DNA from: Gonapodya prolifera JEL478
Taxonomy: Eukaryota; Monoblepharomycota; Monoblepharidomycetes; Monoblepharidales; Gonapodyaceae
Length of the DNA: 22,172 bases
Assembly (NCBI GenBank): GCA_001574975.1
Contig: KQ965918.1
Coordinates: 1,413-23,584 of the forward strand
Reading direction: 5' to 3'
Part shown: in pieces, positions 1 through 22,172 of the stretch
How the letters are laid out: the number at the start of each line of letters is the position of its first letter
Numbering within the stretch: the stretch's first letter is position 1
Notes under the pieces: generated by a model
What the model was told of the DNA's origin: nothing
Databases searched by the model: none
What the model saw: the letters and a program-made list of their open reading frames with translations, nothing else
Made by a program: the position numbers and the translations under genes

Positions 1-1454
1 GCCTTAACAGCACTGTGCCACACACTCAGCCCCTATCTGTGCTGTGCCACACTCCACCCCACACAGCCATGTAAATGGCTGTCACCCAGGAGGCTGGGTG
101 ACATGCCACCATTGATGTATGTATCATCTATTCGTTTAACTTGCTTAGGCTTAGACAGTGGGACTGTTGGTATTTTGTATTTTGAAACAAAATTGGGACT
201 AATAATTGCATAGATGGATGAGCCAGAGTCGATCTCAGCAGAAGTAGAAAAGAAAGATGAGTTTATTTGTAATCTCAAGTTAACCAACATGCTTAGATTG
301 CTTCTACTTATGCTTGTTCCAACTCTGACATCCATCTGCTTGGATGCCAAAGGTGGGCCCTGAGGGTGGCAATGTTCCCCAGGGCCTAACAAAAATCCTT
401 TTTAGTAGTTCCAGGTTCTTGCAATGCCCCAACCTTTGGGATGAACCTTTTTAGGGGGTTGCAAGTTAGGATGCTGTACCCAGCGCTTGATATCAGAGTG
501 AGGGGCTCCAGGATGGATTTTGCAAGAATCATGGGCCACAGTGCCACCATGAAGGCTGTCATGGGCATCTATGCGCCTGCACCTCTGAATGGCAGATTCC
601 AAACTATTTGGGTCATAGTCAGTGAGGGCTAGTGCCTGTTGCAGCTTTAAGGAAAGAGCTTTGACAAGCATTTGAACTGAATCTTTTGCTGCAAAGCCTG
701 CATCCATACAAAGGACTTGGAATCAAATTAAAAAGGCCTCAAAGTTCTCCCCTGGCCGCTGCTTGATCTGCAGAAATTGGGCTCGAGCTGTTGAAAGTCT
801 ATCAAAATTGTCAAACAGGCTATCAAGCAATTCCCAAAGTGCTTTTAAAAGTGAAATTGGTGTAGAATATGGTTGAGGTTCCATAGAGTGCATTGTAGAC
901 CACTGAATGTAAGTAGTCATGGCTGTACCTTTCAGGCGGGATCCAATATATATAATCTGCTGATATGGAGTAGTATATGTGTGGGGCTGAGCTTAGAGGA
1001 ATAATTGTGTTCTAGTTTGCCAGTGTCTATAGGCATCTCTCTCTGTTGCAGTATCCCCTGAATACTCTGGGGGTGGCTCAATCTTAGGATCTTTGGCTGC
1101 ACCACCCACTAATTTGGCAACAAGTGCAAGCTCTTGGCGAAGTTCTTCATTCTCCCTCTCAAGTTCCTGGACCTGAGAGCACAAGGTTGGAATCATAACC
1201 ACTTGTGATTCCAATCTCCGCAAGGTGGCTAATACAGTTTGAAACTCCACTCTAGACACATTACCAGTACCAGTTAAACGTTCTAAAAATTCTCCTGAAG
1301 AAGTAGGAAGGATACGTTGGGGTGCAGGGGTATGGCTGTGCACCCCATTATTGGAAGCAGCAAAGACATCAGATTGATTCCCTTCAGTGGCATTTTCCAA
1401 GCGCCTTTGACTAGTAGGTGTATCAAGAGTGTGATAATTGCTAGATGAGCCCAT
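1..1454 (-). pseudogene. Decayed gag-protease ORF of LTR retrotransposon (copy A)
   Basis: One minus-strand reading frame runs from an ATG at 1454 (peptide start MGSSSNYHTL) to the left edge. It is broken by four in-frame stops at 993-995 (TAA), 723-725 (TGA), 402-404 (TAA) and 33-35 (TAG), with no frameshift. The N-terminal third has a coiled-coil stretch (LERENEELRQELALVAKL). The middle part looks like a retrotransposon capsid (tryptophan- and leucine-rich, with KQRPGENFEAFL matching the usual end of the capsid helix set). Near 170-230 is an aspartic-protease active site, EIDSGSSIYAIISP. No intact CCHC zinc knuckle is visible. The protein would form the particle and process the polyprotein of a Ty3/Gypsy-like element. 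The same N-terminus, better conserved, is found at 22018-22172. Reverse transcriptase and integrase would lie outside the window. Confidence 0.8.
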
Positions 1455-1813
1455 TTGAGTAGTTTTTGTTACAATAATGGGTGCAGATTTGATGATGGCT
1501 GCACTTTGAATACAAAACTGCTGATAACTCAACAAGGAATAGTTCAATTCTGATGAAACTTTGAAGTTAAAATATTGATAATATTGATTTTATAAGACGT
1601 GTACGTCCGTTGAGAACAATACGATATAACACTTGGTTCTTCATCCACGATTCCACAGTCAGAATTACGCCAGTCAAGATTACGGCTTCCTGAGCTGAAT
1701 AAATCCAACAACGACGCGTCACACTGATAGATATGATAAGAGAGTATGTTTTCGCAAAAATTGTGTCCCAGTAAAGCTTCTGTGCCTTGAAATAAGCTAA
1801 AACCTGGGCGTGG

Positions 1814-1824
1814 AAGTTTGGCGT
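1814..1824 (-). other. Self-priming primer-binding site of copy A
   Basis: On the minus strand the 11 nt ACGCCAAACTT begin 2 nt after the LTR end. They are the exact reverse complement of AAGTTTGGCGT inside the same LTR (1938-1948 on the minus strand). I see no match to the usual TGG-starting tRNA primer site. This fits a Tf1/sushi-type element whose transcript 5' end folds back to prime minus-strand DNA synthesis. Confidence 0.6.
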
Positions 1825-1826
1825 AA

Positions 1827-2064
1827 TGCTACACAACTAGGTGAGCTGCACAAGCTTGTAAACTGCAGGATTGTGTTTCTATCATTAGAAGTAGATAATG
1901 AGTTGGTTTATACATGGAACTCACCTGCAGGATTGTGACGCCAAACTTAGGGCACGTCCTGCAGGTGCACACATCTAATCTCGTGACCACAGTAGTGGCA
2001 CAGCACCTAGCACCTCAAACTATATATACCATGTCAATGGATGTCACTTGAAGCTATGGTGACA
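1827..2064 (-). repeat. 5' LTR of retrotransposon copy A
   Basis: This 238-bp LTR reads TGTCACCATAGC... to ...TGTGTAGCA on the minus strand, so it has the standard TG...CA ends. It carries a TATA-like box (TATATATA, 2021-2028) and several CCTGCAG motifs. It belongs to the same subfamily as the LTR at 21420-21653 and is more distant from those at 3983, 7078 and 9920. The internal region with gag follows directly on its left. The 5-bp flanks (CGTAA and ATCTG) do not match, as expected because the other end of the element is outside the window. Its insertion cuts the C-terminus of the Ulp1-like protease gene on its right. Confidence 0.85.
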
Positions 2065-3910: not shown

Positions 3911-6525
3911 TCACTTCATACACATTAATTCAGGATATTCCTGCTTCCACTTCTTTAATATTATTAAGTTTCTAATCATTACTGCTACACAACCTAGGAG
4001 AGCTGCACGAGCCTGTAAACTGCAGGAACGTGCATATATGATCAGATGTACATAGCAAGATGTGATGTGCATAGAACTCACCTGCAGGAACGTGATGCCA
4101 AACTTGAGGCACGTCCTGCAGGTGTGCACATCTAAACCCGCGGCCACAGTAGTGGCACAGCAGCTAATACCCAACACTCATACTACACTATATACTCCAC
4201 GTTAGTGGATGTCAGTGTGACAATTACAGGTCCAAGACGGGACCTCCGGTCCCCAATAACATTCCTCCCTGTGGAAAACATCCGCTCCGATTCTGCGCTG
4301 GTCCCTGGAATCCCCAGGTAGTCTTGCGCCATCCGCTGGAGTCCCAGAAGGTCTCCCCTTCCCTTCCAGTACTCCAGCAAATTCGTCCTCCACGGCCTCC
4401 TGGTCTCCATCAAGTACTGGTCCAGTTCCCCTTGCATATCCTTGTCCTCATCAAAAATACTCATTGCTCCTGCATCCTCTGTGGCTGAAGTCCGACGCCC
4501 AAGGCCACCACCCGTTGCAACACTTGCATACCTGTTGTCAAATGTTGCTTGGATGGTGGCCTCCACTTCGTCCATGTACTTCGTTTCCCATCCTTGTTCC
4601 TGCATCCACGATAGCTTGTATGCCGGGTGCAGCACTGTTGTAAAATTAGTCAAGGTGTCACTGATGTAAAACTGCAACGGGGCAACTCACCTAACGCAAT
4701 CCAATAGAGCCTCGTGCTATCTGTCTTTGCGTAGTACTTCCAAAGCACTTCCATGATGGCTTCCCGAACCGTCAAAAGGACCGGCAGCAACCCGACGTCT
4801 GCGTCCTCAAGCTTGTCCATTACGACGTTGAAGAGGGGGATGACCATCACGAGGGTCCGGTACGCTGCACTCTCCACCAAGGAGAGTGCTTGTGCTAGCG
4901 GCTGCATGAAATAGACAGGACAGGGTTAGGTGAGACCAGATCACAATTCACGTTTGCACCTACCTCAAGGAGACGTCGAACCTTCTCCAGATAGTTCCAG
5001 TCCTCGTCCGTCAGTTTCCACTCCCATAGTTTCACGTCCGAAGCAAAGAGCTTCTCCACCTCCGCTCTGTCCTGCATGGCGCGGGTGATGGCATCAAAAT
5101 CCAATTTCCATTGGGTTCCAACCAGCGCCACTAACTTGCGGGCCTTGGATCGTTCCATGAACTGCTTTGCATACAGTTCGCGGAGTCTTGGAGAGCATAG
5201 AACCTTGTAAACGAGCACATAGAGCTCCAGAACAACAAGTTACCAAAGATGCAGCCACATGAAAAAAGACAAAACAGCCACTCACCTTCGTTACAGGTCC
5301 ATCGTCGCCTCCAACAACGTCCTAGTCATCAACATCGGGAAGTCGCAACTTCTTGAGTCCTGCCCGGACAGCCAAGTGGAGGATATGGGCAAAACAGCAA
5401 ACCTGCAAGTCAACCTCGCTGAAGTTTGCTGCCATCATGCTGGAGTTTGCGATTGCTCGCATCATGGTTTCATTGTTGCCTGCATTGTCCATTGTGAACG
5501 AGATGACCTGTTTTCATGTTTGGGATATTTGTGAAAGTGCCAGCACCTGACCAACAACAATATAGTGCAACTCACCTTTTTTGTAACCCCAGTATTTCTG
5601 AGTGCTTCTAGCACAATCCTAGCAAGATTCTCTCCTGTATGGGGGCCCTTCACCTGAACAAAGTCCAACAAGACCTTGTTCATGCACCAGTCTGTCCCCA
5701 CCCAATGTCCTGTCACAGCTGCAAAGCTGTACCGCTGGTCCCGTGTGGTCCATACGTCCGTTGTGCATGCGATTCGCGTGCAATCAACCTGTAGAGAGTG
5801 CTTAATGGTTGTGGTAACAATAAATTTCAATGACACTCACCTCCAAAAGGTCCCGAATCGTCCCCTCTTAACGGTCCACCTCCTGTGGAATATCCGCCTT
5901 AATCATATCTCCTGATATCCGGGGGACTATGGGGTTTGCTGCATGAATCATCCTCAGGAACCACCGGTTTGTTGGTTTGGTGAGAGGTTGGTCGGCTGCA
6001 ACAATCCAATCGAGCATAAGTGCTTGATAAGCCTCTTCATCAAATGCCTGTAAATGGTGGTTAAAACTTGTTTGGTGAAACGATTCCGGGCATTATCACA
6101 CACCTGGACCGGATCTTGCTTCTGTTTCCCAGTTGCCATGTCCTTGAGGGTAAGCTGATTGCTGGTGGGGATTCTCTGCTGCTCCAGTTTCTTCCTTATG
6201 TTGGGGTCCCTGATGGTGTCTGCATGGTACTTCAAGACGTGGGTCTGGAGGGTTGACGTTGAGTGGTGTTGGGTCATATCATAACTAATGGAAAAAATGG
6301 AAGCAATGAAGCAGAAAATTATAACAAATTGTACCATACTCACGGTTTTGCACTGCATCCATTTTGTCCAAAATGACGGCAGATTGCCCTCCTCTCCCCA
6401 CCCTTCTCCTGCTTTTCAAAGTGTCCATCCTGAAACACCCATGACTCTTCCTGCTTGGAAGTGGCAAATCGCTTTGCGGCAATCCATCCATTGCCTCCTG
6501 GTGTACTTGATCCACCTGTGCTCAT
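3911..6525 (-). pseudogene. hAT transposase (BED finger, DDE-RNase H, hATC), one nonsense codon
   Basis: The ATG at 6525 opens a multi-exon gene. Domains in order: a BED zinc finger (SWVFQDGHFEK, CRHFGQNGC, then after a 59-bp intron at 6285-6343 STSTLQTHVLKYH); the DDE catalytic region with CTTDVWTTRD (first Asp), SFTMDNAGNN (second Asp) and CFAHILHLAV; a GTQWKLDFDAI segment at the position of the usual TRWNS motif; and a C-terminal dimerisation domain with MAQDYLGIPGTSAESERMFS and GDRRSRLGP. The enzyme would cut and paste its own element. Two lesions are seen: an in-frame TAG at 5322-5324 after RLPDVDD, and a solo LTR at 3983-4222. Without the LTR the end reads LGPVMIRNLIILKKWKQ and stops at 3911-3913. 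Intron borders were only partly resolved. Confidence 0.85.
3983..4222 (-). repeat. Solo LTR (copy B) inside hAT transposase
   Basis: This 240-bp LTR reads TGTCACACTGACATCC... to ...GTAGCA on the minus strand. It is flanked by a perfect 5-bp target duplication, ATTAC (3978-3982 and 4223-4227). No internal region is present, so it is a solo LTR left by recombination between two LTRs. It interrupts the last codons of the hAT transposase. It carries the AAGTTTGGCAT core that pairs with the primer site in the full copies. Confidence 0.92.
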
Positions 6526-11803: not shown

Positions 11804-14690
11804 TTACAAGGACCGTTGCGTTGAACCTACTGCGAGCGGCACCCTGGCAGCGGGGAGGGCCACAGTGTCCACTCCCGGCACAGCGCCGATCGCTCCACGA
11901 ACGTCCTCTACATTGCGCGCATTTGAGGAAGGAGGTGGCGCGGTCGGTGTGCCGCCGCTCCCTGTAAGATGGACGGATTCGAGGCGGATGGTTGGCGGTC
12001 CAGAAAAGTTTGGCTGGCTTGGAGCAATGCGAAGGCAATCTCTGTTTTGGGCATGACGTGTTGAGACCCAAGCAAATTGGCAGGAAAAAAGAAATAAAAA
12101 AATGTCAGTACCAGCTATTTGCCAAGTTGCTGGAGCGCCAACATACAAGGGTATTAATCCCACTGCCTCGCTCACAACATTGAGTCCGATACCCCACCCG
12201 TCGCGGAACACTGTTTTCAATTTCACGAGATCGCCGCGTGCCGCGGCAAGTTCGTCCGGGTTCGTGGGGACGTACTTTATCGGGAGCGATGTATATGCGG
12301 ATTCGTCAGAGATGTATTTTGCAACAAAATGGAATGACTCTAGCAACTCTTCAAACTTGTAACTCGAAACTATTTCAACTCACATCGTGCTCCACACTCA
12401 GTGGAGGGGATCGAAGAGGTAAATCCACGCGAGGCATATGATCGAGCATCGTCCCAACAAGTGCAGTGAAAGCCCAGTGTGGAACCTGACCACAGAAAAA
12501 AAAAAGAAATGTTTTTGAAGTTAAACAAACCGTACCTTTTCGCTCAGCACCATCAAACAAGTTAGTGGCCAAAAGACTCACCAAGCTCTGCAGGTGTTCA
12601 TCTTCACCTGCCAACCCAGGCCCGTTGGGGATCTCATTTGATGTGATACGGTCAAAGCGATGCGGCTGTCCGGATCCCCCTTGATCGCGGAATGGGTTAT
12701 AATTTGAGGGCACCGCTAGTCGGAGGCTGTCACTGGGGGGAAGCGCAAGCAAAGGTGGTGGTGCGAGAGGCTTAGATGGCGGTTCTGTACCATGGCTGGA
12801 CAGAGGGATAACCGGCTTCAGGTTTCGAACGGATGGCCAGATCGTCAAGAGTTCAGAAGAAGGTCGTCCCAAAATGACCAAGAGAGCACCCACGGTTTCC
12901 AAATTGCCGAGCAGGCGCGTCAATGACGCGTGTGTTGATTCGTCGTCCAGGTTCTTGTTGCTATTACGAGGTTGTTCTTCGGTGCTATTGTTTTCCGATC
13001 TTAGGTCGCGTACATGACGCATCTTGCTGTCGGGAGATACGGTCCGTTCAACTGCTATGCTGGTGCGCTGGGGAGGTAGAGCACGAGGAGCCGTGGGCTG
13101 TGTTTTCCGAATGCCCTCACTCGCCACCGCCATCGTGTCCAGGTTTGATGTAGATCTCCGATTCTTTGCCTTACCACGCCGATACCGCGCTAACCCTACA
13201 ATCAAGATCGCGACCCCAACTACCCCTCCAATGACCCCGCCGGCAATCGCAGCAGTTTTCGGCCCAGATATAGAATCGCTTGGGTTAATACATGCACCGC
13301 TGAAGACTATCGGCGACGCCGTGTCATTGCAAACCGACGGCAGACTCCCATTGCATGAATACAACCCTGGATTTGATCCCAAGCGGCAGTACATCAAAGC
13401 AGGAAGCTTGAGCAGGTTGTCTAAGTTCCCGGAAAAGTTGTTAAAGCTGAGATCGAGATTGGTGAGACGTTCGTAGCCATAAAGTGGCGGAATTGACCCG
13501 CTGAAATGGTTGTGATCAAGGGCGACGTATCGCAAATACTGTGGAAGCTTTGGGGGGGCTCCCGACAGTTGGTTGTAACTTAGGTCGACGAGTTGCAGTT
13601 CGGAGAACGAGGTCAAATCCTTGACGTTGCCACTGAACTGATTGTGGCTCAGATCCAAGGTAATATTTTGAAAATATTCTGGGGTCCAGGTCGGAATCGA
13701 TCCTGTCAATTGATTCCTGCTCAGATTGAGGATTGACAGACTTTTGGAATAGGCGCTGATCGTCCCTGAGAGTTGGTTATTGGATAAGTCTAGAATTTCC
13801 AGGTTTTCAAGGTAAGACCCGTATACACTCGCGGGAACTGGGCCTGTAAGAGAATTGTGAGAAAGATTGACGGTGGTGAAACCTTCGCCCAGTTTTGGAA
13901 TCACTCCGGTGAGGTTGTTATCGCTGAGATCGAGAATGGATGATCCCGGTGCATTTTGAAGGTACGGAATCGTCCCGGTGAGGTGGTTGCGGCTGAGATT
14001 TAAAGTATAGAGAGTCTTAAAGCTACTTAGTGGCGGGATGGTTCCCGTGAGGATGTTGGAGCTCAGGTCCAAGACCTGCAGTGTGACGTTGTTTTTCAGG
14101 AGGTAGGGCACGGGGCCTGAGATTTTGTTGAAACTGAGGTTGAGGTGGTACAGGTTGAAACCCCAGGACAAAGGAATCTGCCCGTCAATATTGTTGAGGC
14201 TTAAGTCCAGATAATAAAGTTGTGTTGTTGCACTGAGATCCGGAATCTCTCCCATGAATTGATTTTTGCCCAAGTCTATGCGTTCGAGTTGCGTTAGGTT
14301 GGCCAACCACTGCACATTCCCGGTGAGCTGATTGTTTGAGAGATCGAGGATTCTGAGCTCGGACGCAACGGAGATGTTGGAAATAGGAGCTCGAAGCCCC
14401 AACCCATACAGCCACACATCTTTAATCCTGCCTGAACTGCAATTGAACGCGGGAGCGGGAGGATTATACCAGTTGGACGACGGATTGACAGAGCAGCAAT
14501 CACCCGGTTTCCATAGGAGGGGTAATCCAGATTGGTTGAAAAGCTGCTCGAATGGGGTGCAATCGGGTGTTTGAGACATGGTTGGATTCACCGCGACCAA
14601 AATCAACGCGGAAAAAGACAAGATTCCGAATAGTACGGAATGGGGTCGCGACCGACAAGGGAGGAAGTGCTTTGTTCTTGTAGTTTGCAT
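11804..14690 (-). CDS. LRR receptor with membrane segment and cytosolic SH3 domain
   Basis: The ATG at 14690 opens a signal-peptide-like N-terminus (hydrophobic about 20-34), then a Cys pair region (PGDCCSV) and about 14 plant-type leucine-rich repeats (LxLSxNxLxGxIP), with many NxS/T glycosylation sites. A Cys-bearing cap (SLPSVCN) and one membrane helix follow (about 478-500, AAIAGGVIGGVVGVAILIVG) with a basic RYRRGKAKNRR stop-transfer. The cytosolic part is Ser/Pro-rich and includes PPSKPLAPPPLLALPP, a possible SH3 ligand. A second exon block (12346 to about 12200) encodes an SH3 domain: YVPTNPDELAAARGDLVKL, FRDGWGIGLN, GLIPLYV. Likely introns are 12486-12530 (GTTTGT donor, in frame; 12535 GTACGG is the alternative) and one starting GTGAGT at 12383 with an unusually near acceptor. 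The tail after the SH3 domain to 11804 is Pro-rich and its splicing is unsure. The ligand is unknown. The role is inferred as a cell-surface sensor recruiting SH3 partners. Confidence 0.8.
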
Positions 14691-15065
14691 GGCGGGTCAA
14701 AAAAAAAAAAAATTGGGGGTGGCGCATACTTGGCCCTCTTGTTATTTCCCCGAACTCCACCATTGCAATTGAGGCAAAGTCTTGCACCCCCCTCCCCCCC
14801 CCTTCACACCGTAAATCTCCGGCTGTGAGGGAGGCACAGGCATCATTCGTTTTCGTAATTCTAAAAGTGACCGCGAACACGACTTGCAACGGAGCATGTC
14901 CATCGCCATGATTCTTCAAGTTTCGGATTTTGGTGAAAAGGAGTTTTCGGTTAAACTCTCACCGCAACTTGCAAGCAGATAATGGGTTCTCCCTTTTTAT
15001 TCGTGGGGAATACATATACTAACACTTCAATCATGCACCTGCTCCGATGGCCGGACCAGAGCGAA
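14691..15065. other. Upstream region of the LRR receptor gene
   Basis: No gene seen. It contains an A-run (14700-14713) and a C-rich run (14786-14802) just upstream of the LRR gene's start, so it likely holds that gene's promoter and 5' UTR. No clear TATA box was found at a fixed distance. Confidence 0.35.
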
Positions 15066-15746
15066 TTTGTGACCTTGAAGACACGCTGGTGCTTGCTCTC
15101 TTGACCGTTTTGTGTATGAACTTTTCAGAGAACAAGTCGCTCATCAAGAACACAACCACGTCCATCGAATCGTCACGTCGTATATCAAAAGTGTAATGCG
15201 TGGTTACCCTTGCATGAGTNTCAGAGAACAAGTCGCTCATCAAGAACACAACCACGTCCATCGAATCGTCACGTCGTATATCAAAAGTGTAATGCGTGGT
15301 TACCCTTGCATGAGTGATGTGAAATTCTACTTGTTTTGATCTGTGCAGGGAAGGAGTAAATTGAAGCATAGAGCACAAGGTTTTGAAAGACCACAATAAC
15401 GAACTGTTTCCCGCCCGCCATAGAATCAAAGGAAGTTATTGTATCCTATAATTGCGAACTCGTTGTGACCGCAGGGAGCAAGGGCGTAGCTCTTTGTTCG
15501 AGGGTTGTGAGCTGAAAGAAGACCCCAACAGCTTTTCATCTTTTGAGTTCGGTTGGATCCCCTCCTAGCGGTAATTTAGCACTGGTGCACTGTTTTGACG
15601 AAATTCGGCTTCAAGTACACTCTCCACCTCCCCTCGCCACAACTGCTCACATGCTACAAAATCCGCCACTACATCATTTGCTCGCCCGAACTCGATAATG
15701 TAATGTCTGAGAATCGAATCCCAATACAATGCATATGTGTGGATCC
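15066..15746. repeat. Segmental duplication, copy 1
   Basis: After removing the duplicated 96 bp around the N at 15220, this copy is 585 bp, exactly the length of copy 2 at 20212-20796. I counted about four differences. The match starts at TTTGTGACCT and ends at GGATCC. Beyond the ends the flanks are unrelated. The orientation is the same in both copies. Confidence 0.92.
15125..15315. other. Probable assembly overlap: 95-bp direct repeat around one N
   Basis: 15125-15219 and 15221-15315 are identical and separated by the single N at 15220. The other duplication copy has the block once (from 20271). This is the pattern left when two contigs with overlapping ends are joined with a placeholder base. 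Confidence 0.85.
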
Positions 15747-17981: not shown

Positions 17982-20205
17982 ATGAAGCGATCGTCGCCTG
18001 CAATCGGAATGCTCAGTCCTGATGCCGACGCGGGCCGAGCATCTTCAGCGTCCGATGCGAACAATGAGCCATCAACGAGGACTAGAAACTCAAATGAAAG
18101 GTCCCTCTCTTTGAGGACACTCATAGTGCTGCTGGTTACTGTCAGGTGTGTCCTCGTTACGAAATGCATCTCCCAATGGGTACCCTTTACCCACTCATCA
18201 CGGAACAGTATCTCCTCGGTTGCTGTTGTAACGGTGTGGCTTGGTGTAAACACCAATAACAAGTCTATAGCAAGCTCTTCAGATCAAGGTCATAATCGTC
18301 GGAGGGTTCAAGTTCGATGTATGCAGTCATTAACGAAAAGTCCCGAATTTTTACGACAGCATCACAAAGCATTGCTTCGCTTGGACAAGCGCGTCTTTCC
18401 GATGCAAGCGACAAAGTTCTTACCGCTGTTGGTGAGCTTTGAGCGAATTTTGCTCTTGCTTGTTACACTTCGTCACTTGTTTCTTCCATCGATTGCAGAC
18501 TCCTACCTGAACCAGGTACAAAATCGGTAACATTCGCGTATAGTACTGGTGGCAATCTGTTGACACATCTTTTGATATATTTGCTTAAGGTGTTCTTTGC
18601 GGGGATCAGTTTTACCGAAGCTTTCGAAAATGGTCTTCTGAACTATACCGATTATGAGTGAGTGATAACAAGTGGTGGCGCATCTCTGTCCATCCCACTG
18701 ATTTAATTGTCTCTCTCTACAGTGCGATAATTCCTTTCTTGAACAAGACCATTGCTGCTTTCAAACTCGACTGTGTGTTGGCTCAGTTCTGCCCGTTTCC
18801 GCCTGCTTTTTCAGCTCAATTCTTCCACCAATTTAGCAATCGCCGATTCTTTTGTATACGTAACGCTTTCAGGTCCGAACACTTTTGCACTGGTCTCTAA
18901 TGAAATCTACGGTGGAACCGGCCCACCGGCGTTTCTAGTCCGAGGTGCAAATCTGACATGTCAGCGCTTCTGTCCCGTTAATGACACGCAAGGCGCAAAC
19001 TATGTGTATCCTCGGAATCCCGCCACACTTCAGATCGGAAACATTTCGTTTTCGTTCAATTTTCCTCCTGCCCCGGAGTACTTCATCCTCTATCCCAAAG
19101 GGACCGCGCACCTCTCAGATTTAAATGTCGGAATCGGAAACTCTTTCTATCAGGAGATGTATACAAGCATTTTGGCCCCTTCTGGGCAACATGTCGCTGC
19201 AGGAGCTATCACCTTCACAGTCCGGACTCTTTGTTCTCTCCTCGACACTATTCAAACGACCCTTACTAATAATTCGCTGCTGTACATGTTTGTTCCTACG
19301 CAAGGAGGGAGAATGGTTGCCATATCAGGGTTGGGTAATGACACGATGCAGAGAAAGGTGCCTTGCTGCGGTTTCCCATTGTACAGGTTTGGCCATCATG
19401 TTCAACGACCAAGACCGTTCTGTTCCTGCATAATCACAGGCTTTGATATTGAATAGCGCTCCACGGTCAATCTTTGACTTCTCATATGAGGAATATCCAT
19501 TGCTCAATATTTCCGCTGCAACAATCTTCCAGTACTCGGGAAACAATTTCTCTCGGGAGCTCAAAGATTCACAATGGATGATTGGCGACTATATGTTCCA
19601 GTTCAAATCTTTGACGAAATTTGGCTTCAAGTACTACTTGGTCACCGGAGCGTGAGTTGCATGTGGCACAAGTGATGGTTTCGTATCTATTAGATCACAA
19701 TTCTCCTTGCAGACCACTCTATGACTTCCTGGGAGACACAATACATTTAAAACAAAGACTTAAAGAAGACGGCGTGCGGTCGACGGTTGTTGTAGTGATT
19801 GCAGGTGTGGATCAAAATTCTTTGCCCGCCTCGCGGAGATTGTGTGGGTACCGCAGTATTCATCGAAACTCTTCTGCAATTGTCCCCCACCCATAAAGCG
19901 GTGGCCGTAGTAGTAGGCCTAAGTCTTGCTGCTGTGATCTTCGTGTGGGTCTTCATTACGAGGCCTCTCCAAGCGTGGGTTCCTTGCAAGTGTGCTGTTG
20001 CCAGCGTTGCCTCTACGGGATTTTCAAATCCACTCGCCCCCCACCCGTCTCAGGATTCTTGTATCCATGAAGAAAGCAGCCAAATTCGATTTCTCTGACA
20101 TAAGAGGTGGCAGTCTCGAAGGTCGGCGTTCCATTGTCTCGGAGATTCTACGCACCCAAGACAATTTTATGGAAATGCTTCAAGTTTTCGCGAGTGCTCT
20201 TAAAC
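17982..20205 (+). CDS. dCache-like sensor receptor with RhoGEF (DH) start, 3'-truncated
   Basis: The ATG at 17982 fits an 11-exon model, all joins in phase: 17982-18145, 18209-18245, 18305-18431, 18499-18515, 18590-18657, 18723-18774, 18815-19357, 19440-19651, 19713-19773, 19805-19974, 20054-20205 (about 534 residues). A short Ser-rich cytosolic N-terminus leads to membrane helix 1 (about 45-70, LIVLLVTVSISSVAVVTVWL). An extracellular region of nearly 390 residues follows, with Cache hallmarks: a long N-terminal helix, SFVYVTLSGP, a helix before NNSLLYMFVPTQGGRMVAIS, and a late QWMIGDYMFQF, LTKFGFKYYLVTGAPLYDF strand pair. Helix 2 is at about 459-478 (AVAVVVGLSLAAVIFVWVFI). Then comes GRRSIVSEILRTQDNFMEML, the first conserved helix of a RhoGEF DH domain. 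The rest of DH is missing. The model implies ligand-controlled Rho activation. The 31-bp intron 19774-19804 is odd, and domain names come from pattern only. Confidence 0.7.
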
Positions 20206-20211
20206 GTACGT

Positions 20212-20796
20212 TTTGTGACCTCGAAGACACGCTGGTGCTTGCTCTCTTGACCGTTTTGTGTGTGAACTTCTCAGAGAACAAGTCGCTCATCAAGAACACA
20301 ACCACGTCCATCGAATCGTCACGTCGTATATCAAAAGTGTAATGCGTGGTTACCCTTGCATGAGTGATGTGAAATTCTACTTGTTTTGATCTGTGCAGGG
20401 AAGGAGTAAATTGAAGCATAGAGCACAAGGTTTTGAAAGACCACAATAACGAACTGTTTCCCGCCCGCCATAGAATCAAAGGAAGTTATTGTATCCTATA
20501 ATTGCGAACTCGTTGTGACCGCAGGGAGCAAGGGCGTAGCTCTTTGTTCGAGGGTTGTGAGCTGAAAGAAGACCCCAACAGCTTTTCATCTTTTGAGTTC
20601 GGTTGGATCCCCTCCTAGCGGTAATTTAGCACTGGTGCACTGTTTTGACGAAATTCGGCTTCAAGTACACTCTCCACCTCCCCTCGCCACAACTGCTCAC
20701 ATGCTACAAAATCCGCCACTACATCATTTGCTCGCCCGAACTTGATAATGTAATGTCTGAGAATCGAATCCCAATACAATGCATATGTGTGGATCC
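20212..20796. repeat. Segmental duplication, copy 2 (abuts truncated RhoGEF)
   Basis: 585 bp, about 99% identical to copy 1 (15066-15746 without the artefact). It starts 6 bases after the last coding base I can assign to the dCache-RhoGEF gene (20205) and ends at GGATCC, where the 70-bp tandem repeat begins. Open frames inside it do not resemble the missing part of a DH domain. Confidence 0.9.
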
Positions 20797-20805
20797 AGCA
20801 TGTTG

Positions 20806-21040
20806 ACTGATATCAAATGTGCACTCAATTTGAAGTCAATTTGATGAGGTGCACTTTTATGCACAATTGTATACCACTGATGTCAAATGTGCACACAATT
20901 CAGAGTCGATTTGATGAGGTGCACCTTTGTGCACAATTGTATACAACTGATGTCAAATGTGCACACAATTTGAGGTTGATTTGATGAGATGCGCTTTTGT
21001 GCACAATGATATACAACTGATGTCATATGTGCACTTGACG
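20806..21040. repeat. 70-bp tandem repeat, three full units plus a partial
   Basis: Units start with ACTGATGTCAAATGTGCAC (variants) at 20806, 20876, 20946 and 21016, exactly 70 bp apart. Each includes GATTTGATGAGGTGCAC and TGTGCACAATTGTATAC, the latter holding a GTGCAC palindrome. It is AT-rich with no coding potential. Confidence 0.9.
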
Positions 21041-21419: not shown

Positions 21420-21653
21420 TGTCACCATAGCCTCAGGTGACATCCATTGACATGGTATATATAGTGTGAGGTGTTAAGTGCTGTGCCACTACTGTGGTCA
21501 TGTATTTAGATGAGTGCACCTGCAGGGCGTGCCCCAAGTTTGGCGTCACGTTCCTGCAGGTGAGTTCTGTGTGCGCTACAACATATTATGTATCTTTGAT
21601 CATATATATACACGTTCCTGCAGGCTCGTGCAGCTCACCTAGGTTGTGTAGCA
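21420..21653 (+). repeat. 5' LTR of retrotransposon copy E
   Basis: 234 bp, from TGTCACCATAGCC to TGTGTAGCA, the same subfamily as 1827-2064. It has a TATA box (21456-21463), AAGTTTGGCGT (21536-21546) 73 bases further on as a candidate transcript start, then CAG|GTGAGTTC (21556-21566) and a TTCCTGCAG acceptor-like site (about 21614-21622). The internal region with gag follows. Confidence 0.88.
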
Positions 21654-21655
21654 TT

Positions 21656-21666
21656 ATGCCAAACTT
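21656..21666 (+). other. Self-priming primer-binding site of copy E
   Basis: ATGCCAAACTT lies 2 nt after the LTR and pairs with AAGTTTGGCGT at 21536-21546 through ten Watson-Crick pairs and one G-U wobble. It pairs perfectly with AAGTTTGGCAT in LTR copies B and C. The spacing is the same as in copy A. Confidence 0.6.
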
Positions 21667-22017
21667 GCACGCCCTGTTTTTAGCTTATTGCAAGGCACAG
21701 AAGCATTACTGGGACACGAGTTTTTGCACAGACATACTTTCTTATTATATCTATCAGCGCGACGCGTTATCGTTGGATTTATTCAGCTCATTGAGCCGTA
21801 ATCTTGACTGGCGTAATTCCGACTGTGGAATCGCGGACCAAGAACCAAGGGTTATATCCTATCGTTCTCAACGGCCGTACGCGTCGTATAGATTCAATAT
21901 TTCAACTTCAAAGTTTCTTCAGAATTGAACTATCCCTCGTTGAGTTACCAGCAGTTGTGTGAGCAAAGTTCAGCCATCATCAATTCTGCAACCATTATTG
22001 TTACACAAACTACTCAA

Positions 22018-22172
22018 ATGGACTCATCTAGCAGTTCTCACACTCCTGATACACCGATTGATCAAAGCCGCTTGGCAAATGCCACTGAAGGGAATCAATC
22101 TGATATCTTTGCTGCTTCCAATAGTGGGGTGCATATCCAGACACCTGGACCCCAACCTATTCATCCTACTTC
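22018..22172 (+). CDS. Gag N-terminus of retrotransposon copy E, cut by window end
   Basis: The ATG at 22018 follows a leader of about 365 bases. The frame is open to the window edge and begins MDSSSSSHTPDTPIDQ, then NATEGNQSDIFAASNSG. This is clearly homologous to the gag of copy A (MGSSSNYHTLDTP, NATEGNQSDVFAASNNG). An in-frame extension upstream (NYPSLSYQQLCEQ) is also conserved in copy A without an ATG, so the true start could be earlier at a non-ATG codon. No lesion is visible in the part present. Confidence 0.7.
   Translation, partial: MDSSSSSHTPDTPIDQSRLANATEGNQSDIFAASNSGVHIQTPGPQPIHPT

Follow-up and report, generated by a model that had tools for sequence, protein, structure and literature searches.

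Gene structure at the locus

The window analysed here, a 22,172-nucleotide stretch of Gonapodya prolifera JEL478 (contig C187:1413-23584; assembly of 47.6 Mb), contains a gene whose product had been described in an initial annotation as a Cache-type extracellular sensor joined through a membrane helix to a RhoGEF. G. prolifera is placed in the Monoblepharidomycetes and produces zoospores. The gene occupies 17982-20342 (+) and consists of 12 exons that, once joined, form a single open frame of 531 codons followed by a stop (Table 1). All 11 introns are of the GT-AG type, with lengths of 40-94 nt. Hydropathy analysis of the 531-residue protein picked out two hydrophobic stretches, with best windows at 46-64 and 429-447, and 11 N-glycosylation sequons lie between them. 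The spliced one-frame model with two membrane helices, as proposed in the initial annotation, is thus upheld by exons, introns and hydropathy alike. Its end at 20205 is that of exon 11 and not of the gene, since the frame continues through one further exon and closes with TAA.

The public model of this gene, hypothetical protein M427DRAFT_50190 (392 aa, here P0001), showed 94% identity over 69% of our first query. We read P0001 as truncated, in that it appears to use an upstream AG after exon 8, beyond which it runs out of frame, and to miss the first 20 residues of exon 7. The additional strand at the start of exon 7 is also present in the contiguous frames of three paralogues (L002, L045 and L048). 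Exons 9-11, membrane helix 2 included, are backed by the homologues P0002 and P0003, while P0004 backs exon 9 and the cytoplasmic module, with membrane helix 2 skipped in its public model. Because these homologues and the contiguous paralogue frames back the longer joins, the earlier spliced model is for the most part correct and superior to the deposited one. An alternative exon 2/3 boundary was dropped, and the junction of P0001 was adopted instead.

Table 1 Exons of the putative receptor gene in the window, with their assigned content and support
Exon	Position	Strand	Content	Support
1	17982..18145	+	Start codon, N-terminus on the cytoplasmic side, opening part of membrane helix 1	Same start in P0001; hydropathy peak 46-64
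2	18209..18288	+	Remainder of membrane helix 1	Joins and P0001
3	18360..18431	+	Predicted N-terminal stalk helix of the ectodomain	Helix 83-114 in the P0001 model, low confidence
4	18499..18515	+	17 nt	Protein matches P0001
5	18590..18657	+		Protein matches P0001
6	18723..18774	+		Protein equals P0001 up to Cys151; donor two bases different
7	18815..19357	+	Membrane-distal dCache-like part and start of the membrane-proximal part; starts 20 residues ahead of the public-model exon	
8	19440..19651	+	Membrane-proximal ectodomain part	Block pLDDT 77-92
9	19713..19804	+	Last part of the ectodomain (APLYDFLGDTI) and start of membrane helix 2; absent from the public model	Homology to P0002, P0003 and P0004
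10	19899..19974	+	Membrane helix 2 and RPLQ entry into the cytoplasmic module	Hydropathy; homology to P0002/P0003; helix in the P0002 model
11	20054..20205	+	Cytoplasmic module MKKAAKFDFS ... SIVSEILRTQDNFMEMLQVFASALK; contains the putative 'DH helix' RRSIVSEILRTQDNF	
12	20275..20342	+	Short tail NKSLIKNTTTSIESSRRISKV, then TAA stop	

The 3' end of the gene recurs outside it at 15066..15746 (+), where two copies of exon 12 stand with downstream DNA: 15066-15219 corresponds to 20212-20365 (98%) and 15221-15746 to 20271-20796 (99.8%), with a single N at 15220. This copy, 5 kb upstream of the gene, represents either a recent partial duplication or an assembly artefact. Just downstream of the gene, at 20806-21034, a 70-bp unit is repeated in 3.3 tandem copies.

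The predicted ectodomain

Given the two hydrophobic segments and the sequons between them, the ectodomain would fill the extracellular region between the two membrane helices. The predicted model of the P0001 ectodomain and its Foldseek matches point to two PAS-like modules in a Cache arrangement, and the domain is predicted to fold like the double-Cache domains of chemoreceptors. In both predicted fold and extracellular position, the window protein resembles the double-Cache ectodomains of PctD, TlpQ, Mlp24 and vpHK1S, although identity was 6-14% in the first 18 fold-search rows, and because the TM-scores were low the likeness is held to the level of fold. The N-terminal helix 83-114 of P0001 was predicted with pLDDT mostly <50.

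The Cache-type ectodomain of the initial annotation is therefore backed by structure prediction and fold search, but not by profiles: no Pfam Cache profile, dCache_1 included, matched the ectodomain or the whole protein at E<=10. For this reason we describe the domain as dCache-like on the basis of its fold and leave it out of PF02743. According to Upadhyay et al. 2016 (PMC4822843), the Pfam Cache models were built without eukaryotic sequences, eukaryotes have significantly fewer Cache sensors than bacteria, and the only proteins in which Cache had been identified were ones that also carry an output signalling domain. A sequence search of the PDB returned one row only, with E 1.9. Pfam rows for RE_BanI, DUF4457, DUF3040 and MAPEG were discarded as noise below the cut-off.

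The juxtamembrane module and the RhoGEF question

The initial annotation took the exon 11 peptide RRSIVSEILRTQDNF for the first conserved DH helix, directly inside the membrane, so that the receptor would end in a RhoGEF (DH) domain activating Rho/Rac directly. A short likeness of this kind is present. At the motif level SIVSEILRTQDNF resembles the start of DH domains, its E-I-x-x-T-Q-x-x-F recalling the E-x3-T-E-x2-Y start of DH domains in G. prolifera, and the pattern E[ILVM]xxT[EQ]xx[FY] occurs once in the 44,340 six-frame codons of the window. Profile comparison of the module with three G. prolifera DH starts gave a probability of 1.7%, a score equalled by 2 of 200 column shuffles. The domain that should follow was not found: RhoGEF (PF00621) matched neither the whole protein nor the motif-bearing piece alone at E<=10, and 0 of the 43 rows of a family alignment (A4) matched at E<=1. 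The chain ends 42 residues past the motif glutamate, too few for a DH bundle, the DH profile having 180 positions. A genome-wide profile search located 20 RhoGEF stretches in the assembly, none of them on contig C187. The window protein has one short motif in common with RhoGEF proteins and neither the DH nor the PH domain by Pfam. A RhoGEF output is, in our judgement, wrong, and its probability is close to nil.

The structural setting of the motif was examined in the predicted model of P0002 (mean pLDDT 76.7). Here a helix continuous with membrane helix 2 is followed by an eight-residue loop and a second helix, and the putative DH helix corresponds to the opening of the second helix in a juxtamembrane module of ~58 residues. 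HAMP domains are likewise helix-loop-helix structures directly behind a membrane helix, and by eye the module shares with Tsr and NarX a proline-to-aspartate spacing of 15 and an E-x3-[LT]-x3-F-x2-M register. Its connector is ~6 residues longer (by eye), however, and HAMP PF00672 matched neither the window protein nor the rows of alignment A4. Comparison with six E. coli HAMP domains gave a profile probability of 6%, with 2 of 200 shuffles as high (3 of 100 in another run), the same shuffle result as for the DH starts. Since the two alignments are about equally weak, sequence alone leaves the module unnamed. We favour reading the conserved piece as one part of a HAMP-like module of two helices next to the membrane, common to the family described below. 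The case also warns that a short helix motif following a membrane helix may be misread as a DH domain.

A probable receptor family with a conserved module and short tails

When the C-terminal piece (membrane helix 2 and module) was searched against the genome, that of the window protein gave 80 matches and that of P0002 gave 73. Merged by hand, the two sets come down to 61 separate places (E<=0.01), spread over 46 contigs. This is not a gene count, since the weakest matches lie near the threshold, some align with only a part of the query and some are interrupted by stops. Conservation was measured over 33 loci, of which 22 covered the distal part of the ectodomain, 27 the proximal part, 28 the region of membrane helix 2 and 32 the module. 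Median pairwise identity was 27.6%, 29.7%, 31.4% and 45.3%, respectively. Within the module, E489 and F504 are invariant (32/32 loci), and F497 and G478 are each kept in 31 of 32. The module is thus better conserved than the sensors, as expected if receptors for different ligands address the same putative partner.

This pattern bears on whether the proteins are accessory or decoy subunits that bind ligands or channels and transduce nothing alone, in the manner of the alpha2-delta chains of calcium channels. In animals, Cache domains are mostly limited to those subunits, according to PMC4822843. Two such chains, 8fd7_D and 8if4_A, also appeared in the fold list. On the other hand, Pfam found no VWA domain in the window protein, and the best-conserved part of the family is the cytoplasmic module, which alpha2-delta is not known to have. 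We regard the subunit explanation as unlikely.

The ends of the chains were read at 29 loci, including the window gene (L023) and leaving out L042, a second piece of the same gene. The module end was recognised at 27 of the 29, and a tail of the expected type with a stop was found at 24, the window gene among them. This count falls short as independent proof of an output-less family: each acceptor was selected by its start, and even a wrong join would by chance soon run into a stop. The five loci dropped were L026 and L031 (module end unrecognised) and L037, L044 and L046 (no tail of the expected pattern); under a looser pattern L044 has a 24-residue tail. Tails measured 18-68 residues after ALK (median 29.5). 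Stronger evidence comes from L032, where module, tail and stop were read in one exon, and the annotated ends of P0002 and P0004 also lie shortly after the module. In two close pairs the tail exons are gap-free, with 5 and 11 gaps in the 300 nt after the stop.

Alternatively, the loci might be decaying remnants of receptors formerly equipped with a kinase or cyclase output, and stops do occur inside some matches (e.g. L026 and L050), where they may reflect introns or damage. Against such remnants stand the gap-free tails of the close pairs, the intact 12-exon frame and the dN/dS values of 0 to 0.56 in ten paralogue comparisons (two with saturated dS and three resting on few changes), and we hold this explanation to be very improbable.

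DNA downstream of the tails was scanned in 112 frames, comprising 13 from the window after exon 11 and the 99 longest of 240 frames of >=45 residues lying within ~1.3-1.5 kb of the tails, the window locus included. Matches at E<=0.001 were confined to short-chain dehydrogenase/KR families, one F-box-like and one TMEM18, all taken for neighbouring genes; Pfam detected no kinase, cyclase, GEF or phosphatase in the 112 frames. At none of the 61 places did a RhoGEF or cyclase match lie closer than 3 kb, and of seven guanylate cyclase matches in the genome, the nearest on a common contig was ~58 kb away. The nearest same-strand RhoGEF is on contig C13 (L056, G000:C13:151360-155710), ~3.4 kb downstream of a family member. 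The intervening stretch is interrupted by stops in each of the three frames and, judged by eye, holds the start of a second gene, so that the RhoGEF gene is apparently separate.

An output domain might still be encoded in a further exon beyond the stop that we read as the end. The tails are short and poorly conserved, exon 12 contains GT dinucleotides, and the downstream scans at other loci span ~1.3-1.5 kb. P0006, an 879-residue public model from Gonapodya sp. JEL0774, runs from a family receptor into an API5-like region; we rejected it as evidence for an output domain, its API5-like neighbour probably having been fused by annotation, which is the simplest reading. Set against this are the early ends of P0002 and P0004, the single exon of L032, the gaps that in close pairs come after and not before the stop, and the scans of the 112 frames and 61 places. 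A hidden output exon seems a distinctly poor prospect. The direct coupling of the sensor to the actin skeleton envisaged in the initial annotation is unsupported, because the proteins appear to end just inside the cell without a signalling enzyme.

The gene structure, the dCache-like predicted fold, the lack of a recognisable output domain in the chain, the family size and the stronger conservation of the module than of the sensors were computed directly. We conclude that the window gene probably encodes a two-pass receptor of an output-less, dCache-like family with a common ~58-residue cytoplasmic module and presumably one shared partner; beyond the failure of the RhoGEF output, this large family is the wider finding. 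The chain would run from a short N-terminus through membrane helix 1, the dCache-like sensor, membrane helix 2 and the helix-loop-helix module to a short tail rich in Ser/Thr; the lack of any recognisable catalytic domain sets the protein apart from double-Cache receptors and kinases. In the proposed mechanism, the variable ectodomain would bind a small molecule, membrane helix 2 would relay the movement to the HAMP-like module, the receptor probably being a dimer, and this module would engage one common partner carrying the enzymatic output.

Such a logic would resemble that of bacterial chemoreceptors, with many sensors on one transducing module, minus the long signalling hairpin. Methyl-accepting chemotaxis proteins, like the G. 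prolifera family, carry variable sensors on one conserved cytoplasmic part, and a model of McpB was the top Foldseek row for the P0002 model (E 1.7e-4, rmsd 29). In contrast to them, the G. prolifera receptor ends after the module, and Pfam found no MCPsignal hairpin in the window protein. More tentatively, the ~60 dCache-like receptors may form a chemoreceptor repertoire, all feeding one separate cytoplasmic transducer via a new HAMP-like module. If so, this would be a eukaryotic system arranged like the bacterial chemoreceptors but without the bacterial signalling machinery. Any role in the chemotaxis or settling of zoospores is guesswork based on the biology of the organism. A sensor family with matches at 61 places and a conserved module, and with no output domain found at the loci examined, would offer a handle on zoospore chemical sensing, with the module as a defined bait for the common partner.

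Relatives of the family occur in Gonapodya sp. JEL0774. Protein searches yielded Gonapodya proteins only (P0001-P0006); since these searches scored proteins of limited length with exact words in common, relatives outside Gonapodya may have been missed. A scan of prokaryote genomes with P0002 gave 21 pattern matches, 0 of which were confirmed. No published description of this receptor family was found in the literature searched, as judged by titles and the openings of abstracts.

A genome-wide search with dCache_1 gave a single match, on contig C135 (L055, G000:C135:64114-64482, minus), scoring 40.4 against a cut-off of 45 bits. By eye, this gene appears to encode a Cache domain followed by a membrane helix, a stretch resembling HAMP and, before the stop, a short tail containing PPPSYE, a possible WW-binding motif; no output domain was seen. 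Although not recognisably a member of the window gene's family, it suggests that Cache receptors without an output also occur outside that family.

Elsewhere in the window, a 773-residue leucine-rich-repeat frame lies at 12375-14696 (-) (LRR_1, E 7.3e-33), with no kinase among its Pfam matches and an apparent membrane helix by eye; it is possibly another surface receptor next door. By eye, gag-like frames that resemble each other lie in opposite orientation at the two window ends (993-1836 (-) and 21470-22172 (+)), the frame 993-1589 having no Pfam match at E<=0.01. The frame at 4183-4686 (-) resembles the end of a hAT transposase.
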